Positions 2,723 to 35,562 of a stretch of 36,726 nucleotides of DNA are shown here, one piece after another (the stretch's first letter is position 1; each line of letters starts with the position of its first letter). The notes under the pieces are model-generated. The model worked only from the letters and a program-made list of their open reading frames with translations, was not told the origin of the DNA and searched no databases. Origin of the DNA: Candidatus Daviesbacteria bacterium (lineage in GTDB: Bacteria > Patescibacteriota > Microgenomatia > Daviesbacterales > UBA10151); the NCBI GenBank assembly GCA_016187035.1, contig JACPKL010000001.1, positions 142,607 through 179,332 on the forward strand, in the 5' to 3' direction. Both the position numbers and the translations under genes were made by a program.

Positions 2723-3481
2723 ATGGATAGATTGTCATTAAATGCTGAGGAAAGAAAAGTCTTAGGTAAAAAAGTTAAGGCCTTAAGAAAAAGAGGCAGC
2801 TTGCCAGGCCATGTGTTTGGCAAAGGTGTTGATGGGGAAAATGTGCTCCTTTCTACAAAAGACTTTTTAAAAATCTTTCATCAGGCAGGGGAGACAGGCT
2901 TGATTGATTTAAAAATTGGATCTGAGAAAGTTAGGCCGGTGCTTATAAGGGAGGTTCAGCATGATCCTGTTACCAATCAACCTATCCATATAGATTTTTA
3001 CCAGGTTAATTTAACCCAGAAAGTTACAGTGGCTGTGCCTATTGTTCAAATAGGAGACTCACCTGAAGCAGTTAACTTAGGCGAGGCTATTGTTTTACAA
3101 ACCTTAAATGAGATAGAGGTGGAAAGCTTACCAGCTGATTTGCCGGAGAAAATAGAAGTGGATATTACACCGCTTAAAGCAATTGACGATGCTGTTAGCT
3201 TAGGGCAGTTAAGCTATGACAGGAAAAAAATTACTATCAGTGCTGATCCGGCAGAGATTGTAGTTAAACTTGCTCCGGCTGTTTCTGCCCAAATGGAGAA
3301 GTTAATGGAGGAGCAGGCTCAAGAACAGGCTGCTCAAGCAGCTGAGGCCCAAGCAGCAGAAGGCGCTCCTAAAGAAGGTGAGGCTCCAGCTGAGGGTGAA
3401 GCGCCAACAGAAGGTGAGGCTCCAAAAGAAGGGGAACAACCGGTTCCCCAAGCAAAAGAAGAAGAAAAACCCCAAGAATAA
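2723..3481 (+). CDS. rplY: 50S ribosomal protein L25 / general stress protein Ctc, with a repetitive acidic C-terminal tail (EGEAPxEGEAP)
   Basis: L25/TL5 pattern: LSLNAEERKVLGKKVKALRKRGSLPGHVFGKG...HDPVTNQPIHIDFYQV. Confidence 0.9.
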   Translation: MDRLSLNAEERKVLGKKVKALRKRGSLPGHVFGKGVDGENVLLSTKDFLKIFHQAGETGLIDLKIGSEKVRPVLIREVQHDPVTNQPIHIDFYQVNLTQKVTVAVPIVQIGDSPEAVNLGEAIVLQTLNEIEVESLPADLPEKIEVDITPLKAIDDAVSLGQLSYDRKKITISADPAEIVVKLAPAVSAQMEKLMEEQAQEQAAQAAEAQAAEGAPKEGEAPAEGEAPTEGEAPKEGEQPVPQAKEEEKPQE

Positions 3482-3734
3482 GGACCTGCTCCGCACTTCA
3501 GTAGGAGAAATTATACTTCGTGCTCGCAGAACCTTGCCTTTTTGACTTCGTCAAAAACGTAATTGCGGTGTATTTGCGGGAAATTTGCGTTAATCCATGC
3601 CTAGACTCTTTTTTTGGCTAAATCGGAAAAGTACTGGTTTATCAGTTTAAGTGATTGGTCGTTCATTGGGTTGAGTGTAATATAGAAAGGTCAATTTATC
3701 AATTAATTTCTTTGTAGGATATAATATCGCTGTT

Positions 3735-4278
3735 ATGGATACCAGAAATGAGACAGAGCCAAAACCTACTCTGCCTACTGTTAATGTTACCATTGGTTTT
3801 ACTCCGGAGTCTGCTGTAGAGCGGGCTCATCAGCAGGGACAAGTTAGGTTGATTCGTTCTGTTTTTTCACTTTTTAAAGAGCGTACTCATATGGGTGATG
3901 TTCTAGCATATGCGGAGCATTTACAGTCAAGAATGCAGTTAAGTGAGCAGGATCTTGATCGGATTTTAATGCAACGGAAACCCCAGACGATTGACGAGCA
4001 AGAATATCTTTTGGTCAGTGACCTTAGGAAAATCTACCAGCGTTACCAGGATCTGGCTTACCTTTTATGCTGCCAAAAAACCGTTGCTTAATCTGCATGA
4101 AGCAGGAAAGTTATTACCACGGACGTGGTGGGATGAATGTCGGTATTATGAACTCGAGCGTCTTGAATTATTTGGTGGGTTCTTTAAAACTTTTGGGTCA
4201 TATAGTGAGGATTATAAGCATGATGATCTCTACAAATACTTTGTTCAAATTGGAAGATCTAGTCCTGATGATGCCTGA
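3735..4278 (+). pseudogene. Hypothetical protein split over two frames (ORFs 3735..4091 and 3991..4278), apparently by a frameshift at an A6 run near 4074-4080
   Basis: ORF1 ends LAYLLCCQKTVA*; the +1 frame continues with KKPLLNLHEAGKLLPRTWWDECRYYELERLE. Confidence 0.45.
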
Positions 4279-4334
4279 CTTCTGAAACTTCTGGCCATTC
4301 AGTCGTTGTATGGTTTGTGATGTAGTTTGAACGG

Positions 4335-4363
4335 TTGTAAATTTTATCTAAATTTGGTAATAT
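4335..4363 (+). promoter_or_regulatory. Sigma-70-like promoter for a small RNA: TTGTAA - 17 bp - TAATAT
   Basis: TTGTAA at 4335-4340 and TAATAT at 4358-4363. Confidence 0.6.
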
Positions 4364-4369
4364 ATACCC

Positions 4370-4489
4370 AAAGTGCAGCCGAAGACTGGTCGTATAGGCG
4401 AGCTGTCCTGAGAGGGAGAAAGTCTAAATGACTTTCGAGTCGAAGGAAGTAGGCTGTTTCCCCCTCATAAGAGGGGGTTTTCTTTTTTT
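4370..4489 (+). ncRNA. Candidate structured small RNA convergent with and abutting the DUF3800 gene
   Basis: Own promoter; closing helix GCAGCC (4375-4380) / GGCTGT (4452-4457); internal hairpin GAAAGTC-TAAAT-GACTTTC; strong terminator; no convincing ORF. Confidence 0.6.
4460..4489 (+). terminator. Intrinsic terminator CCCCCTC-ATAA-GAGGGGG-TTTTCTTTTTTT
   Basis: 7-bp GC-rich stem, 4-nt loop, T-tract. Confidence 0.9.
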
Positions 4490-5075
4490 AGACTTCAATT
4501 AAAACATCTTCCTTAACAGCTTTTTTATATAGTTTAGTTAATCTTTCATCCCTTTCGCTTTTAGGTTTTTCTTCTAAAATATCCCTGACAAATCCACAAA
4601 CACTATCTGCTAGTCTTATCAGGGTGTTACTTTCTTCTCTTCTTATTCCCTTTACCTGTCTTGAAGGAATACCTAGCTTGTGAAGCTCTGAACCATAAAA
4701 CCTTCTATCTTTTTCTCCCAGTGCATCAACCGAGATGATAAACTTATGGTTTTTAAAATCTTTAATAGAGTGTACTGCCTTAAAAATAGTCAGAATTGTT
4801 AGTGCTTTATATTCTTTAGTGTTTCCATAAAAAGAGAAATAAATTTTTAACGGATGTTTCCTTTGACTAAGGATTGTTTCTATGTAGGCAAATCTTTTAT
4901 TAGGGTCAGCTTTACCCCATTTAAATTTTTCTTTACCACTTTGTACTTCAACTTTCTCAAGGTATTCCAATACCTCATCTTTGTTTTCTGGAATGACCAC
5001 GGTAACCACAAAAATATCACCTAGAGTATCTTGTCCTGTTTCATCAACATAGCAGTAGAACCTTTTTGGAGGCAT
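4488..5075 (-). CDS. DUF3800 domain-containing protein (RNase H-like fold family)
   Basis: FYCYVDETGQD N-terminus, central ISVDALGEKDRRFY, C-terminal IRLADSVCGFVRD. Confidence 0.85.
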   Translation of the reverse strand: MPPKRFYCYVDETGQDTLGDIFVVTVVIPENKDEVLEYLEKVEVQSGKEKFKWGKADPNKRFAYIETILSQRKHPLKIYFSFYGNTKEYKALTILTIFKAVHSIKDFKNHKFIISVDALGEKDRRFYGSELHKLGIPSRQVKGIRREESNTLIRLADSVCGFVRDILEEKPKSERDERLTKLYKKAVKEDVLIEV

Positions 5076-5092
5076 AAAGAAATTGTAACAAA

Positions 5093-7318
5093 CTAGCTGT
5101 TACTTATTAATGGCCAGTTGGTGATCATAATGGACTGCCCTTGATGGGGTAGCTTTTGCCAGAGCTCTTCAGTTATAAAAGGCATAAATGGGTGAAGAAG
5201 CTCCAGGGAGGTTCTAAAAACATATTCCAAAACAGGCTGGGCCTGCGCACGTCTTTCTTTGGTTGACTCAATATAAATATCTGCAAACTGGTGCCAGATA
5301 AATTCATAAAGAGCCTCAGCCCCGTCATGGAATCTGTATTGGTCAAGGGATTTGGTGACAGTTACGATGACTTTATCTAATTTCTCTAGTATTTCTCTGT
5401 CTTCAGGATAGGTTGATTTTCGGAATGACTCAGAATGACTCGGTGTTCCGGAATTCCGGTTTATCAGACTATCTGATCTACTGGTTTTCTGAGTTGTTCC
5501 GAGTTTTTCTGGATTGAATTCAATAATAAATCTGCCAATATTCCAGAGCTTATTGGTAAAATTTCTCATAGCCTGAAGTTTAGGATGAGACAGCGCCTGG
5601 TCATGGCCAAAAGCAGTCCCATAAACTAAAGCCATCCTGATGGCATCTGCTCCGTAAAGGTCTGCTATTTCCATTGGATTTACCACATTGCCCTTGGATT
5701 TGCTCATTTTTTGGCCCAGCGGGTCTAAAACTTTACCGTGCAGCAGGATATCTTTAAAAGGAGCCTTGCCTGTTACAAAAAGGCCCAGCATTACCATCCT
5801 GGCTACCCAAAATAGCAAAATGTCATACATTGTTTCCATTACCGAAGTTGGGTAGAATTTTTCAAAATCACCTGGTTGGTTTGTCTGAAGTGTTACATAA
5901 GGCCATTGTCCTGAAGAAAACCAGGTATCAAATACATCAGGGTCCTGCTCCAAAGAAGTGCTTTTGCAGTTTGGGCATTTTGTTGGAACTTCCCCTGCAG
6001 TAACAATCCAGCCATAATTGTTAGATTGTTTCATTGTTTCATTGTTCACTTTTGACTTTTGACTTTTGACTTTACTGCATTCCATGCAGTGCCAGGCAGG
6101 TATTTGCATACCCCAGACTATTTGGCGGGAGATATTCCAATCTTTAATGTTACTGAGCCAATTAAAATAAGTACTTTCCCACCTTTTAGGATAAACCTTA
6201 ATCTGGCCATCTTTAACTGCTTTGATGGCTTGTTTAGAAAGATCCTCTATTTTAATAAACCACTGCTGAAGAGGTAATGGTTCTATTTCTGTGCCGCATT
6301 TATAACAAACAGCCACCCTGTTTTGATAATCATAATCCACTTTTTCTATCAGGTTCTTTTGCTCCATTTCTTGGGCAATAGCAACTCTTGCTTCTTTGAC
6401 GCTCAACCCGGCAAACTTACCACACTTTTCATTCAATCTGCCGTCATAACCAATCACTTGTCTGATTTCTAAATTATGCCTTTGGCCGATTTCAAAATCG
6501 GCCGCAGAATGAGCTGGAGTTACTTTAATAACCCCAGTGCCAAACTGTCTGTCTACTGCCTCATCAGCCACAACTTTAATTTTGGCAGGTCCTAACACTG
6601 TTTCTATGTTAATTTCTTTGCCTATATATTTTTGGTATCTTTGATCTTTAGGATGGACTGCGCAAGCAGTATCACCAAATTTAGTCTCAAGCCTGACTGT
6701 AGCTAAAGTTAAAGGCCCATATTTAATGTAGTAGAGAGGCGTTTTTCGCTCCTCATATAAAACTTCTAAATCAGAAAATGAAGTGCCATGTTTAGTGCAA
6801 TAATTAACAATTCTATTGCCTCTATAAATTAGACCTTGATCAAACATTTTTTTAAAGGTTTTATAAACTATCTTGATAATGTCCTGCTCAAGGGTAAACT
6901 TCATTCTTGACCAGTCTAAAGAAAAGCCCAGTCTTCTCAGCTGTCCTTCCATGGTACCCTTATTCTCCTGTACAAAATCCCAGATCATCTGATATAAGGT
7001 TTGTCTGTCAAAGTCAAAACGGGATTTGCCCTCCTTTGCCAATTCTTTTTCAAAAACTACCTGTGTTTCAAAACCGGCATGGTCAGAGCCGGGCAGCCAT
7101 AAGCAAGCCTTACCTTTCATCCGGTGGTACCTGATCAAAATGTCTTCTACCACATACATGGCATGGCCAAAATGCAAAGGAGCATTGGCATTAGGCGGGG
7201 GAAGGATAATAGTGTAGGGTTCACCCTCAGGGTTTATCTCAGGCTTAAAATATCCCTTTTCCTCCCAAAACTGATACCATTTGCTTTCAACCAGATCTTG
7301 TCTATAAACTTTATCCAT
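5093..7318 (-). CDS. valS: Valine--tRNA ligase with repeat-derived in-frame insertions
   Basis: HFGHAMY (HIGH-like), KMSKSKGNVV (KMSKS), GSDHAGFETQVVFEKEL, zinc-knuckle cysteines. Confidence 0.95.
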   Translation of the reverse strand: MDKVYRQDLVESKWYQFWEEKGYFKPEINPEGEPYTIILPPPNANAPLHFGHAMYVVEDILIRYHRMKGKACLWLPGSDHAGFETQVVFEKELAKEGKSRFDFDRQTLYQMIWDFVQENKGTMEGQLRRLGFSLDWSRMKFTLEQDIIKIVYKTFKKMFDQGLIYRGNRIVNYCTKHGTSFSDLEVLYEERKTPLYYIKYGPLTLATVRLETKFGDTACAVHPKDQRYQKYIGKEINIETVLGPAKIKVVADEAVDRQFGTGVIKVTPAHSAADFEIGQRHNLEIRQVIGYDGRLNEKCGKFAGLSVKEARVAIAQEMEQKNLIEKVDYDYQNRVAVCYKCGTEIEPLPLQQWFIKIEDLSKQAIKAVKDGQIKVYPKRWESTYFNWLSNIKDWNISRQIVWGMQIPAWHCMECSKVKSQKSKVNNETMKQSNNYGWIVTAGEVPTKCPNCKSTSLEQDPDVFDTWFSSGQWPYVTLQTNQPGDFEKFYPTSVMETMYDILLFWVARMVMLGLFVTGKAPFKDILLHGKVLDPLGQKMSKSKGNVVNPMEIADLYGADAIRMALVYGTAFGHDQALSHPKLQAMRNFTNKLWNIGRFIIEFNPEKLGTTQKTSRSDSLINRNSGTPSHSESFRKSTYPEDREILEKLDKVIVTVTKSLDQYRFHDGAEALYEFIWHQFADIYIESTKERRAQAQPVLEYVFRTSLELLHPFMPFITEELWQKLPHQGQSIMITNWPLISNS

Positions 7319-16959: not shown

Positions 16960-23150
<6,191 letters not shown>

Positions 23151-23160
<10 letters not shown>

Positions 23161-24761
23161 ATGATGCTACTGGAGACTGGGAATGGCACAAAGTGGAAAA
23201 GACCATGAATATGGGGATACAGGAAGTGTTTAAGATCTATACCAGGTCCGGTCTATCAATTGAAACCACAGAAAATCATCCTTATTTAGTTAGAATGAAA
23301 GCTGGTAAACCAGAAACCTTACCTTTGGGTGGAACTTTTGAGGTAGACCAGTCTCCAAAAATTGAGCAGATGACTAAAGATAGCTTCATAGCTATCGCTT
23401 CTACTGCTTATCCAGATCAAGCTTATGTACTAAAAATACGGAAAGGTGTCAAAAGACAACTTCTTAATCAGTTCAAATCTAAAAAAACTAAAAATTTCGC
23501 TCCAATGCTTTTTGGAAGAAGTATAGCTCTCCTTATTAAACTGGCCCGGATCTCGCCTGACAGATTAATTATTGATAAAGATTTTCCCGGATATAACAGT
23601 TTGGTGGAAGAGATGATTATTCAATCATTGCCTAAAGTGAGTATTGAGTTTAAGTCAGTTGGGAAAAACTCCCCTGCACATATAGCTGCATTTTCTTTTG
23701 TCAGTAAGAAAGAAGAGCATAAAAAAACGACCGTGATTCCTTTTGAGGGAACTATAGCGGCGCTGCACCCTGAGTTTCACAGGGATTGGCCAGTTGTCGA
23801 AGCGGATTTCGGAGTATCTCCGAAAGGATCTTCGCTCCCCGCACACGGTCTGTTTTCTTCCTTATATCATAAAAGGCAAGGTTTGTCAAGAAAAGACACA
23901 GCATGGACTAAAGTAGCCCAACTTAAACCAGGGATGATAATTGCCACCCTCAGAGGATGGGAGCCAATTAGAACTATTCATTCTACCAACAGAAAACTTA
24001 CCTATGATTTACAGATTGCTAATACTCATAACTTTGTAGGTAATAATATAGTTGCTCACAATACCTATTTAAATGGTAATTTAGGATTAGGTATCCAAGC
24101 TCCAAGTTCCAAGCTCCAAATTCTAGGTGATGGTACAGGCACTGGAGTCCAACTGTTAACCCAAAATAACACCCAGACTAACTTTGGATTATCTGTTTTA
24201 GATAATGGTAATGTTGGTATTGGGACAACTGCTCCTAGCGTACAGTTCCAGGTGGGGTCGACTAATTATGGAGGAAATACTGATATTTATGTAAGAGATG
24301 GGTCTAGTAGCGATCTGAGAGTTCGATACGATGATACTTATATTAATAGTATTAATGAGAGAAGCATGAATGTTGCAAATAATGATTTTATACTTAGTAC
24401 TTCTGGTGGTGTAAGTAATAGAGAGATGATTTTTAAGCCTAGATCTACTGAAGCCATGAGGATCTCAGGTGTGGGCAACGTTGGCATTGGATTTACCTCT
24501 CCTGCAGCCAAGCTGGATGTGATGGGGACAGCCTTACTTAGAGGCTCCTCTACTACCACTGGTTTAGCTGTGACTGCTGCTGGTAATGTGGGGGTTGGGA
24601 CTACTTCTCCTCTGGCTAACCTGCATGTTGTAGGACAGTGTGTGACAGGAGATACATTGTTAAAGCGCAGGAGAAGAAAGCGCAGGACGATGGATGATGG
24701 AGAGATAGAAGATGGTGATTTGAAGATGGAACCATCCTCTACCATCTACCGTCAATTCTGA
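23151..24761 (+). CDS. Fibre protein part 2 (rest of intein 2, fibre repeats, start of intein 3)
   Basis: ORF in a different frame; homologous continuation of intein 2. Confidence 0.7.
23721..23854 (-). ncRNA. Antisense small-RNA gene in intein 2 (~134 nt)
   Basis: Minus strand: TTGACA - 17 bp - TATAAG (23889..23861); P1 GACCGTG/CACGGTC (23850-23844 with 23735-23729); hairpins CCCTG-N7-CAGGG and TTTCGGA-GATAC-TCCGAAA; T7 directly after P1. Confidence 0.7.
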
Positions 24762-25725
24762 TAATTATATTTATGATGAAGTCCGTATTGACCAAATCCA
24801 GCCTGGTGATGAGATATTAACTTTGGATGAAAGTACTGGCAGATTTATAACCTCTAAAGTTAAAGGCTTAATGGATATGGGTAAAAAAGATATCATAAAG
24901 ATAACAACTGCATCAGGTAAGAGTATCAGAACCACTTCTGAACACCCGTATCTTATAAGGAAAGAGGAGAAAAACCAGGAGGAAGACTTTAACACCAATA
25001 TTTTGTATCATCATAGCTTTGAGCATATCCAAAATATTGCAGAAAGTTTTTATAAGGAGGTTTTGGAAGGAGAGTCTGTTAAAGTCCCATCTCTTGGTAA
25101 TGCCGAAGTTTACTTCAGCCGTGAGGGCTGGAACCACTTAGTTGAGGAAAAGAAAAGCAGGTTTGAAGTTATGGCCAGATTTTTTGGGTTACCAAAAATA
25201 CTGCCACTTTTGCTGCTAGCCAAAGATGCTTCTTATGAAAAATCAAGGTCAGAGCCAGGAACCTATTTTTGGGCTTTGCAAGGGATTGTTGAAGGGGTCT
25301 GGGTCAAGGTGATTATCAGAAAAACTAAAGATAAACCCAAACACTTTTATTCTATTATTTGGAAGGGTGAGGAACACAGAAGTGAAGTAAAAAATGCCAT
25401 CAAAAAAGGTGCTGTCTCTCGCTTGTATCCGCGACGTCAGGCTTGGGATAAATCCCTCACCTTCAGCACCTTTAACTGGAATAAGTATACCACATTTGTC
25501 AACAAGTTACAAGTTACACACCTTCCAGGTGAGAAAAATGCCTTACACCTGGAAGGTGGGGGAAAATGGATTAAGGTAAAAGATCTGCAAATTGGAGCAG
25601 AGATTGCCACCATAGACGGCTGGGAAGAGATTACTACTATAGAACACCTGCCAAGAGAACAGGTATTTGATATAGAAGTAGCTAATACCCATAACTTTGT
25701 AGGTAATAATATAGTTGCCCACAAT
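24639..25725 (+). other. Intein 3 (frameshifted) with possible BECR-fold (barnase/EndoU/colicin/RelE-like) nuclease domain
   Basis: CVTGDTLLKRR... TTSEHPYLI... FDIEVANTHNFVGNNIVAHN|T; insert EVYFSREGWNHLVEEKKSRFEVMARFFGLPKIL...GVWVKVIIRKTKDKPKHFYSIIW. Confidence 0.8.
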
Positions 25726-28700
25726 ACATATATTACTGGTAATTTAGGACTGGGTATAGCTTCACCCCAAACTAAACTACATCTGTTGGGCTCAGGTACA
25801 GGTACTGGAGTTAATCTGTTAACCCAGAATAATACCCAGACTAACTTTGGTTTATCTGTTTTAGATAATGGTAACGTCGGCATTGGGACCTCAGCTCCTG
25901 GAGGGACATTAGCAGTCACCTCATCCAACACCACTGGTACCACTACTTCTTCTGCTTTTTCCTTTTCCACTAACTCCTTAACCACTGGAACAGGCTTATA
26001 TCTGGCCTCATCTACTATCACCACAGGGACTTTATTTTCTTTAGCCTCTACCTCTACAGTCTTTTCTTCAGGCTATTTGTTTAACCTGGATTGGTCTCCC
26101 ACTTCTTCTGTGACTGCTTCAGGGGATTTATTCAGGATTAATATTGGTTCAAATGGCACTACCACCGGGAACTTGTTTGATATAGAGGATAACACTTCCT
26201 CCCTGTTTTCTGTCTCAGAAGCCCAGATAGTCTCTTCTTTACCTCACTCTTTCACAGCCCCTGGTGATGTTTCGATAGCTTATGATATAGTTTTTACTAA
26301 TCCGACCTCTTCTTTTATTAAATCCCAGGGCCCCCTGGTTTTATCAGCAGGGGAAGTTTATAACTCCTCTAACCTGACCTTACAGACCTTTAATTCAGGC
26401 AAGCTGGTGTTTGACCTGCCTGGAGGGGTGAGTTTTAACCAGCAGCAAAGCTGGAGGCTGCCCTCTTCCACCTGGGCTTTGGACTTCCAAAACACCTCAG
26501 GCACCCAGATCTTAAACTTTGATAGCACTAATGCCAGGGTGGGGATAGGTACTACCGGGCCTGTGGCTATGTTTAATATAGCTTCCACCACAGCAGTAGA
26601 TTTATTTAGGGTGGATGATAATGGCCGGGGAGATACCAGCCCCTTTGTGATAGACCAATCAGGTAATGTTGGTATAGCCAACTCAGCCCCCTCATTTAAT
26701 CTAGATGTGGTAGGTACAGGCAGATTGTCTTCTAACCTGGCTGTTGGCGGAGCCGGCTTAATAGGCTTTACTACCACTGCTACTGCTCCATCTTCAGGTT
26801 TGGCTGTTTCTGGGAATGTGGGAGTGGGGACTACCTCTCCATTACAGGCCCTTCATGTTGTAGGACAGTGTGTAGTTGGAGAAACAAAACTTAAAAGAAG
26901 GAGAAGAAGAAAGGGCAAGAATGGGCAGTGGATAGATGAATGGGAAGAAGTCCCAATCAAAGATATTAAAGCGGGTGATGAAATCCTGACCCTTGATGAA
27001 ACTAGCGGAGAGTTCGTGGTCCAAAAAGTTGAGAAACTGCTGGACATGGGAATAAAGGAAATCTACCAGCTGACAACAGCAACCGGAAAGATTATCAGCA
27101 CAACCAGCAACCACCCATACCTGGTAGCACCCAAAATAAATTCGGGCAAAGTTGCTATTTTTGTTGATGCTGCCAATTTTGAAATAAGTGCCAAACTTAA
27201 TCACCTGACCTTTGATTACAAAGATATAATCAAAACCTTCTTCCCCAACAAAGAAAAAGTTGACTTCCGTTATTACACAGTTGATTTTGAAACCTCCGGG
27301 CAAAGACGCTTCCTGGGTTACCTGGATATCCTGGGCAGCCAGATTGTAACCAAGGCAGCCAAAGTGATTAAAGAGTCTGGTAAACTTGACGAGCACAAAG
27401 CCAATTTTGATGTGGAGATTTCCGTTGATGCAGCCTTAACTAAAGATAGTTTTGATACCATGGTGCTCTTTTCCGGAGATTCAGACTTTACCTACCTGGT
27501 AACTAAGTTGCAGGAATTAGGCAAAAGAGTGGTGGTTATTTCCCCCTGGAGAACCACTGCCAGAGAACTAAGAAAAGCTGCTGATTTGTATCTTGATCTT
27601 TATCATATGCCGTTTGTAGACAATAGAAAAAGGCCCCGAAGGGCCTCTCAAAACCGCTTTTTAGACGGTATGCCTATATTACAACAAGTTTATCCGTTTG
27701 TCAAGAAGGGCAAGTGGACCAAAGTTTCTGGACTTAGGGCTGGTCAGATGATTGCTACGGTTGGTGAAAACGGCAAACCGGTTTTTGAAAAGGTGGTCTC
27801 TATCAAGAAAACCAAAGCAGAACAAGTCTTTGATATAGAAGTAGAAGGCACCCATAATTTTGTCGGTAATAATATAGTAGCCCATAATACATATATTACT
27901 GGTAATGTAGGACTGGGGATAGCTTCACCCCAAACTAAACTACATCTGTTGGGCTCAGGAACAGGTACAGGAGTCCAACTATTAACCCAAAACTCCACCC
28001 AGACTAACTTTGGATTATCTGTACTGGATAATGGTAATGTCGGAATTGGGACTACAGCTCCTGGAGGAACATTGGCAGTCACCTCATCCAACACCACTGG
28101 TACCACTACTTCTTCTGCTTTTTCCTTTTCCACTAACTCCTTAACCACAGGTACTGGATTATACCTGGCCTCATCTACCATCACCACAGGAACATTATTT
28201 TCTTTAGCTTCTACCTCAACAGTTTTTTCTTCAGGATATTTATTTAACCTGGATTGGTCTCCCACTTCTTCTGTGACTGCTTCAGGAGATTTATTCAGGA
28301 TTAATATTGGTAGTAATGGTACCACCACTGGTAATTTGTTTGATATTGAAGATAATACTTCCTCACTCTTTTCTGTTTCTGAAGCCCAGATAGTTTCCTC
28401 CCTGCCTCATTCTTTCACTGCCCCTGGAGATGTTTCTATAGCTTATGATCTTACTTTTACCAATCCCACCGCCTCATATATTAAATCCCAGGGGCCGCTA
28501 TATCTAACAGCCGGGGAGGTTTTTGGCTCCTCTGATTTAACCTTACAGACCTATAACTTAGGTGATATTGTCCTTGATTCCCCTGGAGGGGTGACTTTAA
28601 ACCAGCAGCAAACCTGGACTTTAGCCAATACCTCCACCTGGGCCTGGGATATCCAGAATTCCTCTGGCACCCAGATTATGAACTTTGATACCACCAATGC

Positions 28701-30015
28701 CAGGGTGGGAATTGGACGGACTAATCCAGGCTCTACTTTGGGGGTAAATGGTAATACTATTTTAGGTGCATCCTTTATAGGCAGTGCTGCTCCCTCTAAT
28801 GGTTTAGCTATACAGGGTAATGTAGGAATAGGAGCAACTACTGCTAATTCTAATTTAGTAGTGGTAGGTAATGCTAATATTGGTTCTGCTTACTCCGGGG
28901 TAACAGCACCATCTAATGGATTATTAGTCCAGGGTAATGTAGGAATAGGAACAACAGGCTTAGGTGGTAATGGTAACTTTAACTTAGATGTCTGGGGTAC
29001 AGCCAGGATAACAGGAGCTTTAACATTAAATGGTAATTTAACTAACTCTGCTACATTTTTAGCCTCAGATGGATCTGCTGCTGCTCCTTCATATTCTTTC
29101 TCCTCTGATACTGATACAGGGTTATATAGATATGCTGCTAATTCATTAGCTTTAGTCACAGGAGGAATAGGATCTCAAACATTATCCTTAAACTCCTCTG
29201 GTAATGTAGGAGTAGGGACTACTTCCCCTTTAGCTAACCTGCATGTTGTAGGCCAGTGTGTGGCTGAAGGAACATTAATCAAAAGAAGAAGACGCAGGAG
29301 AAAGACGATGGATGATGGAGAGATAGAAGATGGTGATTTGAAGATAGAAGATAGAAAGGTAGACAAAAATAATCTATCTTCTAATCCTCAAAATACTACC
29401 ATCCATCCTCTACCATCTATTGTCGGTGATTATATTTATGAGGATATTCCTGTTGAAGATATTAAGAGTGGGGATGAAGTATTATCTTTAAATGATGTTA
29501 CTGGGCAGTGGGAATGGCACGAAGTAGAACAAACTATGGATAAAGGGACACAGACTGTATATAGGCTAGAGACAGAGGGTGGTAAATGGATAGAAACTAC
29601 CTCAGAGCATCCATATTTGGTAAAAGAAGAAGAGAATAGAAAAACACAAAAAACCCGCCTTTCAGCGGATTCTTTGACGAATAGCACAATTGATACTTAT
29701 GCTTTCGGACTGTCGGCTAATAGCGTACCACAAAATCTGAACTTTGTCAAATCAGACAGTGGACCTGAGGGGAATCGGACCCCTGCTACTCGAATTGACA
29801 GTCCGAAAGCCGTACCAACGGCAGGCCCACTAGTTTCATTATCTCAAAATACCAATCTTCCTTCAATCTCGAAGTGGCTGAAAGTTTTCCAGATTAAGGC
29901 AGGAATGGAGGTAGCTACCTTCCCCTCTTCTGTCATTGCGAGGAGTGGCAACGATCACGACGTGGCAATCCATAAAACAGATTCCCACGGTCGCCAAGGC
30001 GACCTCGGAATGTAG
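24823..30015 (+). CDS. Fibre protein part 3 (rest of intein 3, fibre, intein 4, fibre, truncated intein 5)
   Basis: 1730-aa ORF, TTG start; in-frame sequence upstream reads DNYIYDEVRIDQIQPGDEILTLDE. Confidence 0.8.
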   Translation: MDESTGRFITSKVKGLMDMGKKDIIKITTASGKSIRTTSEHPYLIRKEEKNQEEDFNTNILYHHSFEHIQNIAESFYKEVLEGESVKVPSLGNAEVYFSREGWNHLVEEKKSRFEVMARFFGLPKILPLLLLAKDASYEKSRSEPGTYFWALQGIVEGVWVKVIIRKTKDKPKHFYSIIWKGEEHRSEVKNAIKKGAVSRLYPRRQAWDKSLTFSTFNWNKYTTFVNKLQVTHLPGEKNALHLEGGGKWIKVKDLQIGAEIATIDGWEEITTIEHLPREQVFDIEVANTHNFVGNNIVAHNTYITGNLGLGIASPQTKLHLLGSGTGTGVNLLTQNNTQTNFGLSVLDNGNVGIGTSAPGGTLAVTSSNTTGTTTSSAFSFSTNSLTTGTGLYLASSTITTGTLFSLASTSTVFSSGYLFNLDWSPTSSVTASGDLFRINIGSNGTTTGNLFDIEDNTSSLFSVSEAQIVSSLPHSFTAPGDVSIAYDIVFTNPTSSFIKSQGPLVLSAGEVYNSSNLTLQTFNSGKLVFDLPGGVSFNQQQSWRLPSSTWALDFQNTSGTQILNFDSTNARVGIGTTGPVAMFNIASTTAVDLFRVDDNGRGDTSPFVIDQSGNVGIANSAPSFNLDVVGTGRLSSNLAVGGAGLIGFTTTATAPSSGLAVSGNVGVGTTSPLQALHVVGQCVVGETKLKRRRRRKGKNGQWIDEWEEVPIKDIKAGDEILTLDETSGEFVVQKVEKLLDMGIKEIYQLTTATGKIISTTSNHPYLVAPKINSGKVAIFVDAANFEISAKLNHLTFDYKDIIKTFFPNKEKVDFRYYTVDFETSGQRRFLGYLDILGSQIVTKAAKVIKESGKLDEHKANFDVEISVDAALTKDSFDTMVLFSGDSDFTYLVTKLQELGKRVVVISPWRTTARELRKAADLYLDLYHMPFVDNRKRPRRASQNRFLDGMPILQQVYPFVKKGKWTKVSGLRAGQMIATVGENGKPVFEKVVSIKKTKAEQVFDIEVEGTHNFVGNNIVAHNTYITGNVGLGIASPQTKLHLLGSGTGTGVQLLTQNSTQTNFGLSVLDNGNVGIGTTAPGGTLAVTSSNTTGTTTSSAFSFSTNSLTTGTGLYLASSTITTGTLFSLASTSTVFSSGYLFNLDWSPTSSVTASGDLFRINIGSNGTTTGNLFDIEDNTSSLFSVSEAQIVSSLPHSFTAPGDVSIAYDLTFTNPTASYIKSQGPLYLTAGEVFGSSDLTLQTYNLGDIVLDSPGGVTLNQQQTWTLANTSTWAWDIQNSSGTQIMNFDTTNARVGIGRTNPGSTLGVNGNTILGASFIGSAAPSNGLAIQGNVGIGATTANSNLVVVGNANIGSAYSGVTAPSNGLLVQGNVGIGTTGLGGNGNFNLDVWGTARITGALTLNGNLTNSATFLASDGSAAAPSYSFSSDTDTGLYRYAANSLALVTGGIGSQTLSLNSSGNVGVGTTSPLANLHVVGQCVAEGTLIKRRRRRRKTMDDGEIEDGDLKIEDRKVDKNNLSSNPQNTTIHPLPSIVGDYIYEDIPVEDIKSGDEVLSLNDVTGQWEWHEVEQTMDKGTQTVYRLETEGGKWIETTSEHPYLVKEEENRKTQKTRLSADSLTNSTIDTYAFGLSANSVPQNLNFVKSDSGPEGNRTPATRIDSPKAVPTAGPLVSLSQNTNLPSISKWLKVFQIKAGMEVATFPSSVIARSGNDHDVAIHKTDSHGRQGDLGM
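25402..25477 (-). ncRNA. Antisense small-RNA gene in intein 3 (~76 nt)
   Basis: Minus strand: TTGTAA - 17 bp - TATACT (25512..25484); closing helix AAGGTGCTG/CAGCACCTT (25472-25464 with 25414-25406); T6 at 25407-25402. Confidence 0.6.
26869..27888 (+). other. Intein 4 (340 aa, intact) with embedded NYN/PIN-like (LabA/DUF88) domain
   Basis: CVVGETKLKRRRRRKG; TTSNHPYLV; FDIEVEGTHNFVGNNIVAHN|T; insert VAIFVDAANFEISAKL...VEISVDAALTKDSFDTMVLFSGDSDFTYLVTKLQELGKRVVVISP. Confidence 0.92.
27627..27669 (-). ncRNA. Antisense short RNA gene in intein 4 (~43 nt)
   Basis: Minus strand: TTGACA - 17 bp - TAATAT (27704..27676); terminator AGGCCC-TTCG-GGGCCT-TTTT. Confidence 0.55.
29304..29424. repeat. Long imperfect inverted repeat (~52-nt arms) in intein 5; degenerate or partly deleted copies in inteins 1, 2, 3, 6, 7
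   Basis: GACGATGGATGATGGAGAGATAGAAGATGGTGATTTGAAGATAGAAGATAGA versus reverse complement of TCTATCTTCTAATCCTCAAAATACTACCATCCATCCTCTACCATCTATTGTC. Confidence 0.75.
29648..29831 (-). ncRNA. tRNA-like small RNA, copy 1 (184 nt), antisense in intein 5
   Basis: Minus strand: TTGAAG - 17 bp - GATAAT (29866..29838); RNA starts AGTGGGCCTGCCGTTGGTACGGC...; terminator AATCCGC-tgaaag-GCGGGTT-TTTT. Confidence 0.7.
29758..29831 (-). other. tRNA-like fold (acceptor, short D-like arm, anticodon-like arm with CTGTCAA loop, T arm)
   Basis: AGTGGGCCTG/CAGGTCCACT; GCCGT-TGGT-ACGGC; TCGGA-CTGTCAA-TTCGA; AGGGG-TCCGATT-CCCCT. Confidence 0.7.
29931..30012. repeat. REP-like palindromic element (TGTCATTGCGAGGAG...GGCAATC...CGGAATG) at the intein 5 breakpoint
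   Basis: Same family as the elements inside tsaD. Confidence 0.75.
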
Positions 30016-30116
30016 GACTGGGGGCTAACTTTACAGGAGCTACCATCCCCTCTAATGGATTAGCTATCCAGGGTAATCTAGGTATAGGAACTACTACAGC
30101 TAATAATCCACTCTCT

Positions 30117-31361
30117 GTGGTAGGTGCTGCCAGTATTGGTAGTAGTTTTTATTCAGTCTCAGCACCTTCTAATGGGTTATTAGTAGAAGGTAATGTTGGT
30201 ATTGGGACCTCATTACCTACAGATAAACTTCATGTGATAGGAAGGCTAAACCTCGCCCTCGCCTCAACAGGTAACAATATTGCTATAGGACCTAATACTC
30301 TACCTAGTGTGACAACCGCAAGCTCGCTTATTGCGATTGGAAAAGATATTTACACTACAGTAACTACTGGAGCAGCTGATGGTATTATTATCGGAAATAA
30401 TGTTGGCAATTCAACGTTTAACCCTAACCTTAGAGTAAGAAATATTTATCTTGGTGACTCAGTCGCTAATGCAAACGAAGGGTATGACAATATCAATATC
30501 GGTCATTATAGCATGGGTAATAATAACTACCGCTCTATATTTATAGGAAACTATGTGGGGCAAACTTATGCACGCGCAACTGATTCTGTTTTGATAGGAT
30601 ATCAGGTAAATAATACTGGTGTAACCTTAACCAATGATGTAGCCGTGGGAGCGTATAGCATGTATAATGCTGCTGATGGAAGTAGCACTGCCAATAATAA
30701 CGTAGCTATTGGGTATAGAAGTCTTGCACAATTGCGAGTTGGTAGTAATAACGTAGCTATTGGGTATCGTGCTGCTGATTATGGATCGACAGATACATTC
30801 TCAAACAAACTATATATTGGTAATGACAATAGTGCAAGTGCCACCTTACTCTATGGTTCTTTTGTTGCCGATTCAGTTTTTGGTAATAAAAAATTCATAG
30901 GTCCTGGTGATGGAAGCACCACTAACTTAGGCTATGTAGGATATACATGGAGTAACGTTTATACTGATGCCTTAACATCAGGATTAGGATTATTCTCTGG
31001 AAATGTGGGAATTGGGACATCGGTAAGTTTAACAGTTAATCCTTTATCTGTTTTTGGTGGAGTGGGTATTGGCAACTCAGGGCCTAATGGCTTTTCCAAC
31101 TCCTTGGCTCCCTCTTTGGGTCTGGCTGTCCAGGGAAATGTAGGGGTTGGGACTACTTCTCCTCTGGCTAACCTGCATGTTGTAGGACAGTGTGTGACAG
31201 GAGATACATTGTTAAAGCGCAGGAGAAGAAAGCGCAGGACGATGGATGATGGAGAGATAGAAGATGGTGATTTGAAGATGGAACATCTACCGTCAATTCT
31301 GATAATTATATTTATGATGAAGTCCGTATTGACCAAATCCAGCCTGGTGACGAGATATTAA
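30117..31361 (+). CDS. Fibre protein part 4, including YadA-head-like repeats, then start of intein 6
   Basis: Repeats such as NNVAIGYRSLAQLRVGSNNVAIGYRAADYG, NDVAVGAYSMYNAAD, DSVLIGYQVNNTG. Confidence 0.75.
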   Translation: MVGAASIGSSFYSVSAPSNGLLVEGNVGIGTSLPTDKLHVIGRLNLALASTGNNIAIGPNTLPSVTTASSLIAIGKDIYTTVTTGAADGIIIGNNVGNSTFNPNLRVRNIYLGDSVANANEGYDNINIGHYSMGNNNYRSIFIGNYVGQTYARATDSVLIGYQVNNTGVTLTNDVAVGAYSMYNAADGSSTANNNVAIGYRSLAQLRVGSNNVAIGYRAADYGSTDTFSNKLYIGNDNSASATLLYGSFVADSVFGNKKFIGPGDGSTTNLGYVGYTWSNVYTDALTSGLGLFSGNVGIGTSVSLTVNPLSVFGGVGIGNSGPNGFSNSLAPSLGLAVQGNVGVGTTSPLANLHVVGQCVTGDTLLKRRRRKRRTMDDGEIEDGDLKMEHLPSILIIIFMMKSVLTKSSLVTRY

Positions 31362-32275
31362 CTTTGGATGAGACAAGTGGTGAGTTTATCTCATCTAAAG
31401 TTAAAGGGTTAATGGATATGGGGATACAACAAACTTATTTACTGATAACTGATAAAGGTAAAACTATCAGAACTACAGCTAACCACCCTTACTTTATTAA
31501 AGAAACCAAGAAAGCTTCTATTATGGGCGGGGTGTACCAGGTAGACCAGTCACCAAGAATAGAAACTCTCACTCAAGACAGTTTTATTGCCATAGCTAAT
31601 TCAAATATCCGGCTTGTTGTTAAAATTGATAAACAAACTAAGAGAAAATTACATGAAATGTACCAGGCTTTGGGAGAAGGAAAGTTCTTTGCCCCTGATC
31701 TTCTTGTCTTTGGCATCCGGGTTTTGCTTAACTTTGCCAATATCCATCCAACCAGAGTACAAATAGACAATGAATACCCGGGCTATGAAAACCGTATCAG
31801 ACAGTTTATTAAAGCCAGTAATCCGGATGTAGATATAGAAGTCAAGTCAATAGGCCATGGCAAAAAAGCATATGCTCATTGGGCATCTTATCTTTCTTAT
31901 AAGGGAAAAGAGGAGGTAGATTTTGAATTTACCAACAAAAAAGACCGCGGCATTCTTCAAAGAAGAGGCCAAGGCACTGTTACACTGGTACCTTTAAACC
32001 AGATTCGCAGTACACGCGGTCTTATAAGGCAAGATTATCACAAGTTAGAAGATTTGTCAACCCATTCGATAAACTCAGGGTTGATACTGAGCTTGCCGAA
32101 TGTATCAAATGCCAAGTGGAGAAAAGTTTATGATATCAAGCCAGGTATGGAAGTGGCAACAGTTGATGGTTGGGAGAAGGTAGTAGCTCTGAAGGAATAC
32201 TCAAGAGAACAGGTCTTTGATATTGAGGTGGAAAATACCCATAATTTTGTAGGTAATGATATAGTTGCTCATAAT
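31191..32275 (+). other. Intein 6 (frameshifted) with embedded RNase H-like domain
   Basis: CVTGDTLLKRR... TTANHPYFI... FDIEVENTHNFVGNDIVAHN|T; insert VQIDNEYPGYENRIRQFI...IEVKSIGHGKKAYAHWASY. Confidence 0.85.
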
Positions 32276-33046
32276 ACATATATTACTGGTAATGTAGGAC
32301 TGGGGATAGCTTCCCCTGCTACTAATCTACATCTATTAGGCTCAGGAACAGGAACTGGAGTCCAACTATTAACCCAGAATAATACCCAGACTAACTTTGG
32401 ATTAGCTGTACTTGATAATGGTAATGTTGGTATTGGGACAACGGGACCGGACTATCAACTCGTAGCAACAAAAGGAGGCAATACTTTTAAGTGGATAGAT
32501 GCGGGTCCGTATATAAGGGTTGATGATGGGACAAGACAGATTGGTATGGGTACTGACTCGACTAACAAGGGGTGGATAGGTTCTATTAGTAACGATGGTC
32601 TTGGGTTCAGAACGAATAATGCAGTCAAAATGTGGATTTCAACAGACGGTAATGTAGGGATTGGAACTAACACCCCAGGATCAGCTTTATCAGTAATTGG
32701 TAATGTTGGGATAGGTACATCTGCTGCAGGGGCAGCTTTACAGGTTAATGGTGGAGGATTATTTGGCTGGGGCACTGCTTCTTCTGCCCTATCTTCAGGA
32801 GCTATTCTGGGAGTTAATGGTAATGTGGGAGTTGGTACTACTTCCCCCCTGGCTAACCTGCATGTTGTAGGACAGTGTGTGGCTGAAGGAACATTAATCA
32901 AAAGAAGAAGACGCAGGAGAAAGACGATGGATGATGGAGAGATAGAAGATGGTGATTTGAAGATAGAAGATAGAAAGGTAGACAAAAATAATCTATCTTC
33001 TACCCTCAATCCTATCAAACAGGAGATTGGGAATGGCATGAAGTAG
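31364..33046 (+). CDS. Fibre protein part 5 (rest of intein 6, fibre, start of intein 7)
   Basis: ORF with intein C-terminal blocks and extein repeats. Confidence 0.7.
   Translation: MDETSGEFISSKVKGLMDMGIQQTYLLITDKGKTIRTTANHPYFIKETKKASIMGGVYQVDQSPRIETLTQDSFIAIANSNIRLVVKIDKQTKRKLHEMYQALGEGKFFAPDLLVFGIRVLLNFANIHPTRVQIDNEYPGYENRIRQFIKASNPDVDIEVKSIGHGKKAYAHWASYLSYKGKEEVDFEFTNKKDRGILQRRGQGTVTLVPLNQIRSTRGLIRQDYHKLEDLSTHSINSGLILSLPNVSNAKWRKVYDIKPGMEVATVDGWEKVVALKEYSREQVFDIEVENTHNFVGNDIVAHNTYITGNVGLGIASPATNLHLLGSGTGTGVQLLTQNNTQTNFGLAVLDNGNVGIGTTGPDYQLVATKGGNTFKWIDAGPYIRVDDGTRQIGMGTDSTNKGWIGSISNDGLGFRTNNAVKMWISTDGNVGIGTNTPGSALSVIGNVGIGTSAAGAALQVNGGGLFGWGTASSALSSGAILGVNGNVGVGTTSPLANLHVVGQCVAEGTLIKRRRRRRKTMDDGEIEDGDLKIEDRKVDKNNLSSTLNPIKQEIGNGMK
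31937..32025 (-). ncRNA. Antisense small-RNA gene in intein 6 (~89 nt)
   Basis: Minus strand: TTGACA - 17 bp - TAATCT (32060..32032); P1 GACCGCG/CGCGGTC (32021-32015 with 31949-31943); T6 directly after P1. Confidence 0.7.
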
Positions 33047-33054
33047 AACAAACT

Positions 33055-35562
33055 ATGGATAAAGGGATACAGACTGTATATAGGCTAGAGACAGAGGGTG
33101 GTAAATGGATAGAAACTACCTCAGAGCATCCATATTTGGTCAGAGAAGCAAAATTAGCGGCGAGGCTTGGAAGAGATGGGGAAAAGTGGCTGAAAGTTTT
33201 CCAGATTAAGGCAGGAATGGAGGTAGCTACCTCTGATGGGTGGGAGAAAATAGTAAGTATTAATAAGGTAGGCAGAAAACTTACCTATGATTTACAGATT
33301 GCTAATACCCATAACTTTGTTGGTGGACATTATATAAATAGAAAGACTGGCCAGGCTTTAACTGAGGAACAGGAAGCAGCCTATGTAGAGTATTTAAACC
33401 AACAAAAAACCCGCCTTTCAGCGAGTTCTTTGACGGATAGCACCGTTGATACGTATGCTGCTAGACTCTCAAAAAAGAGTATAACACAGGATGGCCCTAT
33501 TGTCAATTTCGAAAGTGGACCTGAGGGGAATCGAACCCCCGCTAGCCGAATTGAGAGTCCAGCAGCTGTACCAACAGCAGGCCCACTAGTTTCATTATCC
33601 CAAATCCTAAGGATGGAAGTCAAAGAAACCCTGGACACCTCGAAGGTGGGCTTTGACTCCTTCGAGGTGGAACTTGGCTTTGACCCTGATGACATTGAAT
33701 ATGGTGGCATTGTGGCCCATAATACATATTTAAATGGTAATTTAGGATTAGGTATCCAAGCTCCAAGTTCCAAGCTCCAAATTCTAGGTGATGGCACAGG
33801 TACTGGAGTCCAGCTGTTAACTCAGAATAATACCCAGACTAATTTTGGACTGGCTGTTTTAGATAATGGCAATGTAGGTATTGGGACTACAGCTCCAACT
33901 GGAGTTTTCCAGGTAGGCTCCTCAGCTACTGCTCCTGTACTATTTGCCTCCTCCTTAACAGGCAACGTCGGCATCGGGACAACTAATCCAGGTACTGCTT
34001 TAGATGTGGTTGGCACAGGAAGATTCTCTTCAACACTGACTGCATCTAATGGTCTTACAGTTTCAGCTGGTCAGCTTCTGGTACCTGATGGCACAGATGC
34101 CATACCAGGTATAGGTTTTACTGATGCAAACACTGGTTTCCGCGGCAGGGTCAACGCAGGAATTGTAGCAATTATCGACGGAGTACAGCATGCATATTTT
34201 GGCAACTCTACTCTAACATTAGCAACTACTGATGCCCTTAGCTGGGCATCGGGTCAATACACTGATAGCGCAACAGACCTTAGTATTTTCCGTGACGCTG
34301 CTAATGTTCTAGCTCAAAGAAGAAGCACTAACGCCCAAGAGTTTAGAATATACAATTCTGACTCAACCTCAGATGAGTTTGCCTCATTAGGCTTCATAAA
34401 CAACTCCAACGTTTTTACTATTGAAACTGAACAGGTTGGAGGAGGAACAGTCCTCCCAATTGCTTTAATGGGCGGCAACGTCGGCATCGGCTTTACCTCC
34501 CCTGCTGCTTTATTAGATGTAATGGGTACAGCTTTACTTAGAGGTTCCTCTACCACCACTGGTTTAGCTGTCACTGCTGCTGGTAATGTAGGAGTTGGTA
34601 CTACTTCTCCATCAGCGCCTTTTGAGGTCAAAGCAGCTGGTACTGGTGCCATTGCCAAGTTTACCTCTGATAACTCAACCGGCTGTACCTTAGCTGATGG
34701 GGGGACCATCACCTGTTCTTCTGATTTATCTTTGAAGAAAAATATCACTGGGTTAAGTTATGGTTTATCTGATTTATTAAAGCTTAATCCTGTTGAGTTT
34801 AACTGGAAAATAGATGAAGACGGCAGCTTGAAAAACTTAGGTTTTATTGCCCAGGAGGTGGAGACTGTCTTACCTAAGCTGGTGATTACTGGTGAGGCAG
34901 GCCTTAAAGAGTTAAACACCATTGGTCTGGTACCGCTGCTGACTAAATCTATCCAGCAGATAGAAGGAAGGTTAAAGGGTTTGGAGGAGAAAATAGCTTC
35001 TGATTCTGTACAGTTCATTGCTTCCTCTTCTGCTTCTCTAAATCTTACTCCACCTGATATATTGCTGGCTACAGGATCTGCTAAGTTAAAAGATCTGCAA
35101 GTTTTCTCTGAAGCTACTGTTTCTGGTATGTTAGCTGCTTATGAGCTGAAGGTCTCAGATAGCTTGAAGTCTTTAGGGTTAACCACCTTAGCTAAGACCA
35201 ATGTGGCTGGAGACTTAATCATAGATGGCACCCTTTCTATTACTGGTAACTCTATCTCTTCCCTGGAAACACTTAAACTTCAGGGAGGTAAAGTCACTAT
35301 AGATAATCAAGGTAATTTAACTGTCCAAAAACTAATAGTTTCTTCCAAAACTTTGGGCACAGCAGTTATTCCTGCCAAACAACAACAATTACTAGTTAAA
35401 GGGCAGATAACCAGCAGTTCCAAAGTCTTCCTCACACCGGAAAGACCGGCTGTTTTAGGAGTGAGTAAAGATCCGCTAACCCAAACCTTTACCATCCTGC
35501 TGGAAAAGGTTCAGGATAAAGAATTAAAAGTAGACTGGTGGATAGTGGACTCAGAGGAGTAG
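33055..35562 (+). CDS. Fibre protein part 6: rest of intein 7, fibre repeats, S74-type intramolecular chaperone, C-terminal repeats
   Basis: SDLSLKKNITGLSYGLSDLLKLNPVEFNWKIDEDGSLKNLGFIAQEVETVLPKLV...LVPLLTKSIQQIEGRL. Confidence 0.85.
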   Translation: MDKGIQTVYRLETEGGKWIETTSEHPYLVREAKLAARLGRDGEKWLKVFQIKAGMEVATSDGWEKIVSINKVGRKLTYDLQIANTHNFVGGHYINRKTGQALTEEQEAAYVEYLNQQKTRLSASSLTDSTVDTYAARLSKKSITQDGPIVNFESGPEGNRTPASRIESPAAVPTAGPLVSLSQILRMEVKETLDTSKVGFDSFEVELGFDPDDIEYGGIVAHNTYLNGNLGLGIQAPSSKLQILGDGTGTGVQLLTQNNTQTNFGLAVLDNGNVGIGTTAPTGVFQVGSSATAPVLFASSLTGNVGIGTTNPGTALDVVGTGRFSSTLTASNGLTVSAGQLLVPDGTDAIPGIGFTDANTGFRGRVNAGIVAIIDGVQHAYFGNSTLTLATTDALSWASGQYTDSATDLSIFRDAANVLAQRRSTNAQEFRIYNSDSTSDEFASLGFINNSNVFTIETEQVGGGTVLPIALMGGNVGIGFTSPAALLDVMGTALLRGSSTTTGLAVTAAGNVGVGTTSPSAPFEVKAAGTGAIAKFTSDNSTGCTLADGGTITCSSDLSLKKNITGLSYGLSDLLKLNPVEFNWKIDEDGSLKNLGFIAQEVETVLPKLVITGEAGLKELNTIGLVPLLTKSIQQIEGRLKGLEEKIASDSVQFIASSSASLNLTPPDILLATGSAKLKDLQVFSEATVSGMLAAYELKVSDSLKSLGLTTLAKTNVAGDLIIDGTLSITGNSISSLETLKLQGGKVTIDNQGNLTVQKLIVSSKTLGTAVIPAKQQQLLVKGQITSSSKVFLTPERPAVLGVSKDPLTQTFTILLEKVQDKELKVDWWIVDSEE
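33404..33587 (-). ncRNA. tRNA-like small RNA, copy 2 (184 nt), antisense in intein 7
   Basis: Minus strand: TTGACT - 18 bp - GATAAT (33623..33594); RNA starts AGTGGGCCTGCTGTTGGTACAGC...; terminator AACTCGC-tgaaag-GCGGGTT-TTTT. Confidence 0.75.
33514..33587 (-). other. tRNA-like fold, copy 2 (anticodon-like loop CTCTCAA)
   Basis: AGTGGGCCTG/CAGGTCCACT; GCTGT-TGGT-ACAGC; CTGGA-CTCTCAA-TTCGG; GGGGG-TTCGATT-CCCCT. Confidence 0.7.

Follow-up and report, generated by a model that had tools for sequence, protein, structure and literature searches.

A small structured RNA convergent with an RNase HII-like DUF3800 gene, and a possible role for it as the inhibitor of a nuclease

A stretch of 36,726 nucleotides (nt) from contig JACPKL010000001.1 of a Candidatus Daviesbacteria bacterium (hereafter the window; the genome comprises 1.04 Mb in 13 contigs) carries a small RNA gene on its plus strand, at positions 4370 to 4489, that runs head-on into the end of a DUF3800 gene on its minus strand, at positions 4488 to 5075. 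The RNA and the DUF3800 gene are evolutionarily tied and form a convergently encoded pair that recurs in many bacteria. We propose, with confidence and doubt in about equal measure, that the two form an RNA-protein module resembling type III toxin-antitoxin (TA) systems, in which the RNA would inhibit an RNase HII-like nuclease.

The RNA gene and its relatives

A sequence-only reading of the window had described a promoter, a segment closed by GCAGCC and GGCTGT, and a terminator overlapping the end of the DUF3800 gene, and all of these lie where that reading had placed them. The sigma-70-type promoter (4335 to 4363, plus strand) consists of a -35-like TTGTAA (4335 to 4340) and a -10-like TAATAT (4358 to 4363) separated by a 17-nt spacer, and it has an equidistant counterpart in the homologs; the 5' end of the RNA was set from this promoter. 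The RNA is a three-way junction followed by an intrinsic terminator. Its closing stem, P1, pairs GCAGCC (4375 to 4380) with GGCTGT (4452 to 4457) and encloses a conserved core at 4381 to 4405 (GAA, a bulged A, and a P2 hairpin with a GUAU-type loop, GAAGACTGGTCGTATAGGCGAGCTG), a variable stem, P3, at 4406 to 4447, and a near-invariant TAGG at 4450 to 4453, between P3 and P1. The terminator (4460 to 4488) is made up of CCCCCTC (4460 to 4466), ATAA, GAGGGGG (4471 to 4477), and a T-rich tract to about 4488 that runs into the stop codon of the minus-strand DUF3800 open reading frame (ORF). In the window, P3 is enlarged by a dispersed palindromic repeat of the TCCTGAGAGGGAGAAAGTC..GACTTTCGAGTCGAAGGA type (4405 to 4447), which blastn of relatives also located outside the RNA in genomes G041, G039, G024, G002, and G031; its inner hairpin is present in several copies each in the last three. 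Being such a repeat, this middle segment of 43 nt was not accepted as belonging to the conserved RNA.

Without the P3 repeat, the RNA recurs by blastn in genomes G021, G123, G069, and G085, followed each time by a convergent DUF3800 gene. A covariance model built from five sequences (R1) scores the window RNA at 83.3 bits over positions 4374 to 4486, and in a search of 374 genomes of the class it returned 16 clear matches (at least 31 bits). All 16 have the layout of RNA, terminator, and convergent DUF3800 gene, the gene being broken in 5, which supports the earlier suggestion of a structured RNA associated with DUF3800. Matches in the class below 27 bits (L050 to L058) were rejected as terminators or chance, and the E-values of R1, like those of a second model described below, are rough. 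We also searched from the protein side, using as the query an alignment of DUF3800 proteins drawn from RNA-linked loci (A2). Scanning GTDB contigs with A2 yielded 66 loci in Patescibacteria, Chloroflexota, Planctomycetota, Acidobacteriota, Poribacteria, Omnitrophota, Verrucomicrobiota, and other phyla, with Patescibacteria providing the majority of the named loci that hold the pair. At most of these loci, R1 places the RNA on the strand opposite to DUF3800, directly past its stop codon, and at nearly all of the remainder the RNA was found by eye.

The structure was assessed in an alignment of 54 sequences with a model that holds nested pairs only. Standard pairs occupy 90.3% of the cells in the 22 modeled pairs, and changes on both sides occur at 16 of them; doubly changed cells number 179, versus 61 in shuffled alignments and 15 to 31 when the partner was slid. 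P1 is paired in 99.3% of cells, with changes on both sides in four of its five modeled pairs, and the terminator helix (helix 4 of the model) is paired in 85%. P1 and P3 thus vary in sequence while their pairing is kept. The G, A, and A that follow P1 and the bulged A of P2 with its following C are 96 to 100% constant, the P2 loop is mostly GUAU, and the T, A, and G of TAGG are constant in every sequence, the last G being so in 96%. Covarying stems combined with invariant unpaired bases are the pattern that would be expected from protein binding. Two objections raised in advance, namely, that the segment might lack covariation or might be only the 3' untranslated region of the upstream ORF, do not hold: the first is contradicted by the counts above, and as for the second, the homologs have a near-consensus promoter of their own and their upstream genes differ everywhere. 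The covariation above controls, the recurring layout, and a single-sequence fold of the window RNA with a z score of -3.4 against dinucleotide shuffles place the element beyond chance. Because the homologs carry their own promoter and share no upstream gene, window positions 4370 to 4489, judged by sequence comparison, are a real small RNA gene with promoter, structured RNA, and terminator.

Promoter strength differs between the two partners. At its fixed distance before P1, the promoter of the homologous RNAs agrees with the consensus at a mean of 8.95 of 12 positions (5.0 in shuffles), and 27 of 42 homologs reach at least 9 of 12. Ahead of DUF3800, the number of matches stays close to background (4.3 versus 3.6). 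A same-strand gene ends less than 100 nt before DUF3800 in 16 of 36 cases, and in the window DUF3800 lies 17 nt after valS. Taken together, the strong RNA promoter, the near-background region upstream of DUF3800, and the close upstream genes suggest that the RNA is in excess over the protein.

Two variations on the RNA were also seen. At four Poribacteria loci (L100, L101, L110, and L121), two to three tandem RNA units of about 107 nt, each with its own terminator, stand at the DUF3800 gene, where the window has a single unit. In a further subset of RNAs (L087, L104, L107, L109, L111, L114, L120, L122, L168, L169, and L170), an additional conserved domain, CAGCCA.CCTC..AACAATG[TC]TGGGTT, is present on the 3' side, ahead of the terminator.

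The DUF3800 protein and the known DUF3800 RNAs

The protein partner in the window has 195 amino acids (aa) and passes the Pfam cutoff for DUF3800 (PF12686; 23.2 bits versus 21). It has no significant sequence match among solved structures. An AlphaFold prediction made on A2 is confident (pLDDT 90, pTM 0.88), and Foldseek returned 17 matches with an E-value below 0.001, all of them RNase HII/H2, the first other fold appearing at rank 26 or later. Invariant in A2, and all kept in the window protein, are D11 and E12 (within a DETGQD motif), D117, and D157, which by analogy with the DE-D-D site of RNase HII would form the active site. The prediction for the partner is therefore an RNase HII fold that keeps the four active-site acids, although it differs from RNase HII/H2 in belonging to a separate Pfam family and in having an RNA partner. 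DUF3800 proteins with an RNase H fold have been reported to accompany CRISPR types V-A2 and VI-F as accessory proteins, and a link to putative noncoding RNAs (ncRNAs) has been described as well (PMC10910872, PMC12669027); in the literature examined, we found no function for the DUF3800 motif RNAs.

Other DUF3800 relationships were considered. The PADLOC model DUF3800_VII, which we take to represent the retron type VII effector, matches weakly in 7 of 11 members and covers only residues 4 to 45 of the window protein. A retron of that type likewise joins a DUF3800 protein to an RNA partner; no reverse transcriptase, on which such an assignment depends, was found in the window ORFs that were run against Pfam or in the neighboring genes examined. 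In the whole genome, PF12686 has only two matches, the window gene and one at C10:22013. The second gene (L061, 1384 to 2013; G000:C10:22013-22507) belongs to another subfamily, and convergent at its 3' end (L061, 1314 to 1394) are a promoter-like TTGACA-17-TAGTAT, a small hairpin, and a T-run, for which conservation was not found. The sequence-only reading had also seen the same layout in inteins of the window. This part found no support: R1 finds no second RNA in the window above 14.1 bits, no intein matches PF12686, and the recognizable intein insert is NYN. These inteins lie in a region (19186 to 35562) of repeat-rich surface protein genes that contains several intein splicing domains, one intein having the NYN domain. 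Two near-threshold tRNA-like matches antisense to the repetitive surface protein genes (29760 to 29828 and 33516 to 33584, minus strand) fall in a repeated segment and are probably spurious.

The RNA had been read as either a known DUF3800 motif or a new class, and neither half of that alternative holds as worded. An Rfam search with the window RNA gave nothing at Rfam thresholds and no DUF3800 model even at an E-value of 10, and at the gathering cutoff the Rfam DUF3800 classes matched neither the window nor 20 diverse loci. Because the RNA family is not listed in Rfam, this missing match, proposed as a refutation, is correct as an observation and uninformative as a test. Nor does the RNA look like an unrelated class. 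Homologs of the window RNA score about 16 to 17 bits with the DUF3800-IX model (RF02968; L117, 16.4 bits), below its gathering cutoff of 36.8 bits, which 16 matches exceeded in a search of 287 genomes of the phylum. In the reverse direction, R2, a covariance model built from the new RNA family, picks up the DUF3800-IX members L131 (27.6 bits) and L134 (18 bits). Read side by side, the two RNAs share a three-way junction with the plan P1-CCGAAC..CCGUAUGG..GUG-P3-UAGG-P1', and each has its own promoter and a convergent DUF3800 gene. They differ in that the window RNA family has a short P1 and a separate terminator, whereas in DUF3800-IX, P1 and a U-tract often end the RNA, and in that the DUF3800-IX partner belongs to another subfamily, with MLVFIDESGDPG where the partner of the window RNA family has YCYVDETGQD. 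Given the shared plan and the cross-match of R2, the window RNA is best regarded as a sister variant of DUF3800-IX, one that escapes the Rfam model. DUF3800-IX RNAs also flank a single DUF3800 gene in direct orientation in two cases (L134 and L156 in G391; L140 and L155 in G435).

Loss of the partners and the role of the RNA

If the RNA restrains a nuclease, the module might work as follows. The RNA would bind the DUF3800 protein via those unpaired positions that stay constant, namely, GAA, the bulged A of P2, the GUAU loop, and UAG, and the bound RNA would keep the nuclease inactive. A strong promoter would yield RNA in excess, while the nuclease would be made at a low level, often by read-through from the upstream gene, here valS. 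Should the supply of RNA stop, for example, when a phage shuts off transcription, the nuclease would be freed and would attack RNA or RNA-DNA hybrids. Binding, inhibition, toxicity, and trigger are all steps that we infer.

The pattern of partner loss bears on this scheme. Among the protein-first loci, apart from three at contig ends, every intact DUF3800 gene (51 of 51) has the RNA, 46 by model and 5 by eye (L098, L104, L111, L115, and L116), a count that speaks for this DUF3800 subfamily only, since the A2 query came from RNA-linked loci. At 10 of the 12 broken DUF3800 genes, the RNA can still be scored. From the RNA side, in the class and phylum searches, RNAs lie beside broken DUF3800 genes at L037, L038, L046, L059, L060, L157, L158, and L166, and there is no adjacent DUF3800 gene at L162, L163, L169, L170, L179, L181, and L182 or, in the IX class, at L133, L137, and L139. 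Genome G021, which is 98% complete, keeps two well-formed RNAs while all of its DUF3800 genes are broken, and at L158 the break falls at the catalytic DETGQD motif beside an RNA scoring 69.5 bits. An RNA that is present with every intact gene and often outlives a dead one is what would be expected if it restrains a potentially toxic nuclease. Single frameshifts may be errors, since many loci are metagenome-assembled genomes; that all the broken genes are assembly errors fits poorly with internal deletions (L046, L112, and L130), a lost motif (L158), and total absence (L162, L170, L181, and L182), though errors were not excluded one by one.

Several points weigh against an inhibitory RNA. The DUF3800 gene is a larger mutational target (about 580 versus about 100 nt), and toxicity aside, more breaks would be expected in it than in the RNA, so gene size accounts for part of the one-sided loss. 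What remains is only a moderate excess: with about 20 to 25 losses versus none, and one-seventh of losses expected on the RNA at a 6:1 target ratio, we estimate the chance at about 0.02 to 0.05, counting losses without correction for shared descent. Some of the frameshifts may indeed be assembly errors, and solitary RNAs could be partners of a DUF3800 protein encoded at another site of the genome. RNA and protein distances are correlated (Mantel r 0.29, 0 of 2000 permutations), which speaks for the scheme, but little of this is left at larger distances (r 0.17), and the test does not separate direct contact from shared descent of the cassette. Toxicity, expression, binding, and nuclease activity are predicted from sequence. 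Finally, in described type III TA systems, the RNA lies upstream of the toxin and is cotranscribed with it, whereas RNA and DUF3800 are convergent in the copies that we read.

The type III TA systems (ToxIN, CptIN, and TenpIN) are nevertheless alike in several ways: they combine a small structured RNA with an RNase-type protein in a conserved pair, as do the 51 intact genes here, and they have RNA in excess, as predicted here. With respect to tandem RNA units the comparison is mixed, some members of the new family having them and the window having a single unit. The systems differ in that the predicted fold here is RNase HII-like instead of the ToxN fold, and in that toxicity here is predicted. 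Because the gene order differs and toxicity is only predicted, we do not file the pair as type III. A close precedent for inhibition by RNA is the AbiF system of Clostridioides difficile, in which the RNA RCd22 carries abiF motifs and neutralizes the toxin by direct binding, AbiF being an abortive-infection protein (PMC12373285). Like the module proposed here, that system joins a protein to a structured RNA; it differs in that AbiF belongs to an unrelated family with links to Cas13 ancestors and in that its RNA lies upstream and has two repeated motifs. A broader claim, that DUF3800 RNAs of this type, DUF3800-IX included, are the RNA antitoxins of a widespread, undescribed, and probably antiphage family of TA systems in which the toxin is RNase HII-like and the two genes converge, seems to us a little more doubtful than it is credible.

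In the main rival, the nuclease needs the RNA as a cofactor, within a ribonucleoprotein enzyme that is possibly a defense effector, or the RNA is a guide or substrate recognition RNA. Specific protein binding, to which the covarying stems and invariant unpaired bases point, fits this role, as do the reported ties of RNase H-fold DUF3800 proteins to CRISPR types V-A2 and VI-F and to ncRNAs (PMC10910872, PMC12669027) and the finding that no intact DUF3800 gene lacks the RNA. A cofactor, however, should not outlast its enzyme, and loci with only the RNA and intact stems are common. A guide is also hard to place in an RNA with fixed ends, about 52 nt from P1 to P1', and a P3 that 18 of the 54 sequences close with a tetraloop of the GNRA or UUCG type. 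No guide segment at a fixed position of the RNA, as in TnpB/IscB-like RNA-guided nucleases, was found, and because promoter and terminator set both RNA ends and P3 is often tetraloop-capped, there is no evident site for one. We regard a cofactor or guide as unlikely, though as the rival to be taken most seriously.

Mobility of the cassette and remaining explanations

Less probable still is that the cassette is a small selfish or homing element that spreads by means of its nuclease, which would cut DNA or RNA-DNA hybrids, with the RNA aiding targeting or regulation. What invites this idea is the genomic setting. The flanks of the cassette are unrelated from one genome to the next with few exceptions, a single genome may hold several copies, decay is frequent, and in the window the cassette sits in an extra segment (3482 to 5092) between rplY (2723 to 3481) and valS (5093 to 7318), which in relatives (G003, G004, G012, and others) are convergent neighbors tens of bases apart. 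The roughly 1.6 kb between them hold the RNA, DUF3800, and a split ORF (3735 to 4285; 118 and 95 aa in two frames) that has the look of a decayed gene and no Pfam match. A truncation of valS by the cassette was considered and rejected, as valS of the relatives ends at the same place. The 5' end of recG is duplicated around the cassette in G021. At L037 (1222 to 1443 and 2124 to 3092, oriented by the RNA), a 73-aa copy of the start of recG stands on one side of the cassette and full recG on the other, and at L049 the cassette has paralogous ORFs on both sides; such duplication may be tied to insertion of the cassette. On the other side, inspection revealed no terminal repeats or target site duplication, for which no systematic search was made, and the cassette had no match in phages, plasmids, or IMG/VR, so that carriage by phage or plasmid was rejected. 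Defense and TA modules move too, and a homing element would not be expected to leave the RNA alone behind.

That the RNA only regulates DUF3800 mRNA, whether by convergent antisense pairing or by terminator function, is very improbable. In almost all copies the convergent transcripts do run into each other at the stop codon or close to it, but the overlap with coding sequence is limited to the last few bases, what is conserved is the pairing of the stems together with unpaired bases that do not vary, and the RNA is kept even at loci where no neighboring DUF3800 mRNA is made. We rejected a displaced ribosomal L10 leader, which can hardly be believed: L10_leader (RF00557) is the top Rfam score for the window RNA (19.6 bits, E-value 0.31) but falls short of the gathering score of 44, no rplJ lies downstream, homologs of the window RNA accompany DUF3800 instead of L10, and a better match, itself below the cutoff (33 bits; L032, G000:C5:42625-42764), stands immediately upstream of an ORF taken to be the beginning of L10. 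That probable L10 leader of the genome has a variable stem with nested repeat-like arms that resembles the insertion in the window RNA.

For the inhibitory RNA that we favor, the analysis extends the family well beyond the reach of the Rfam model, fixes its core bases and layout, and predicts an RNase HII-type active site for the protein partner. The order in which the partners are lost leads to a simple prediction, namely, that the RNA inhibits the nuclease. If this is true, the pair would add a new toxin fold and a new gene arrangement to RNA-inhibited toxin systems, and it may explain other DUF3800 RNAs.
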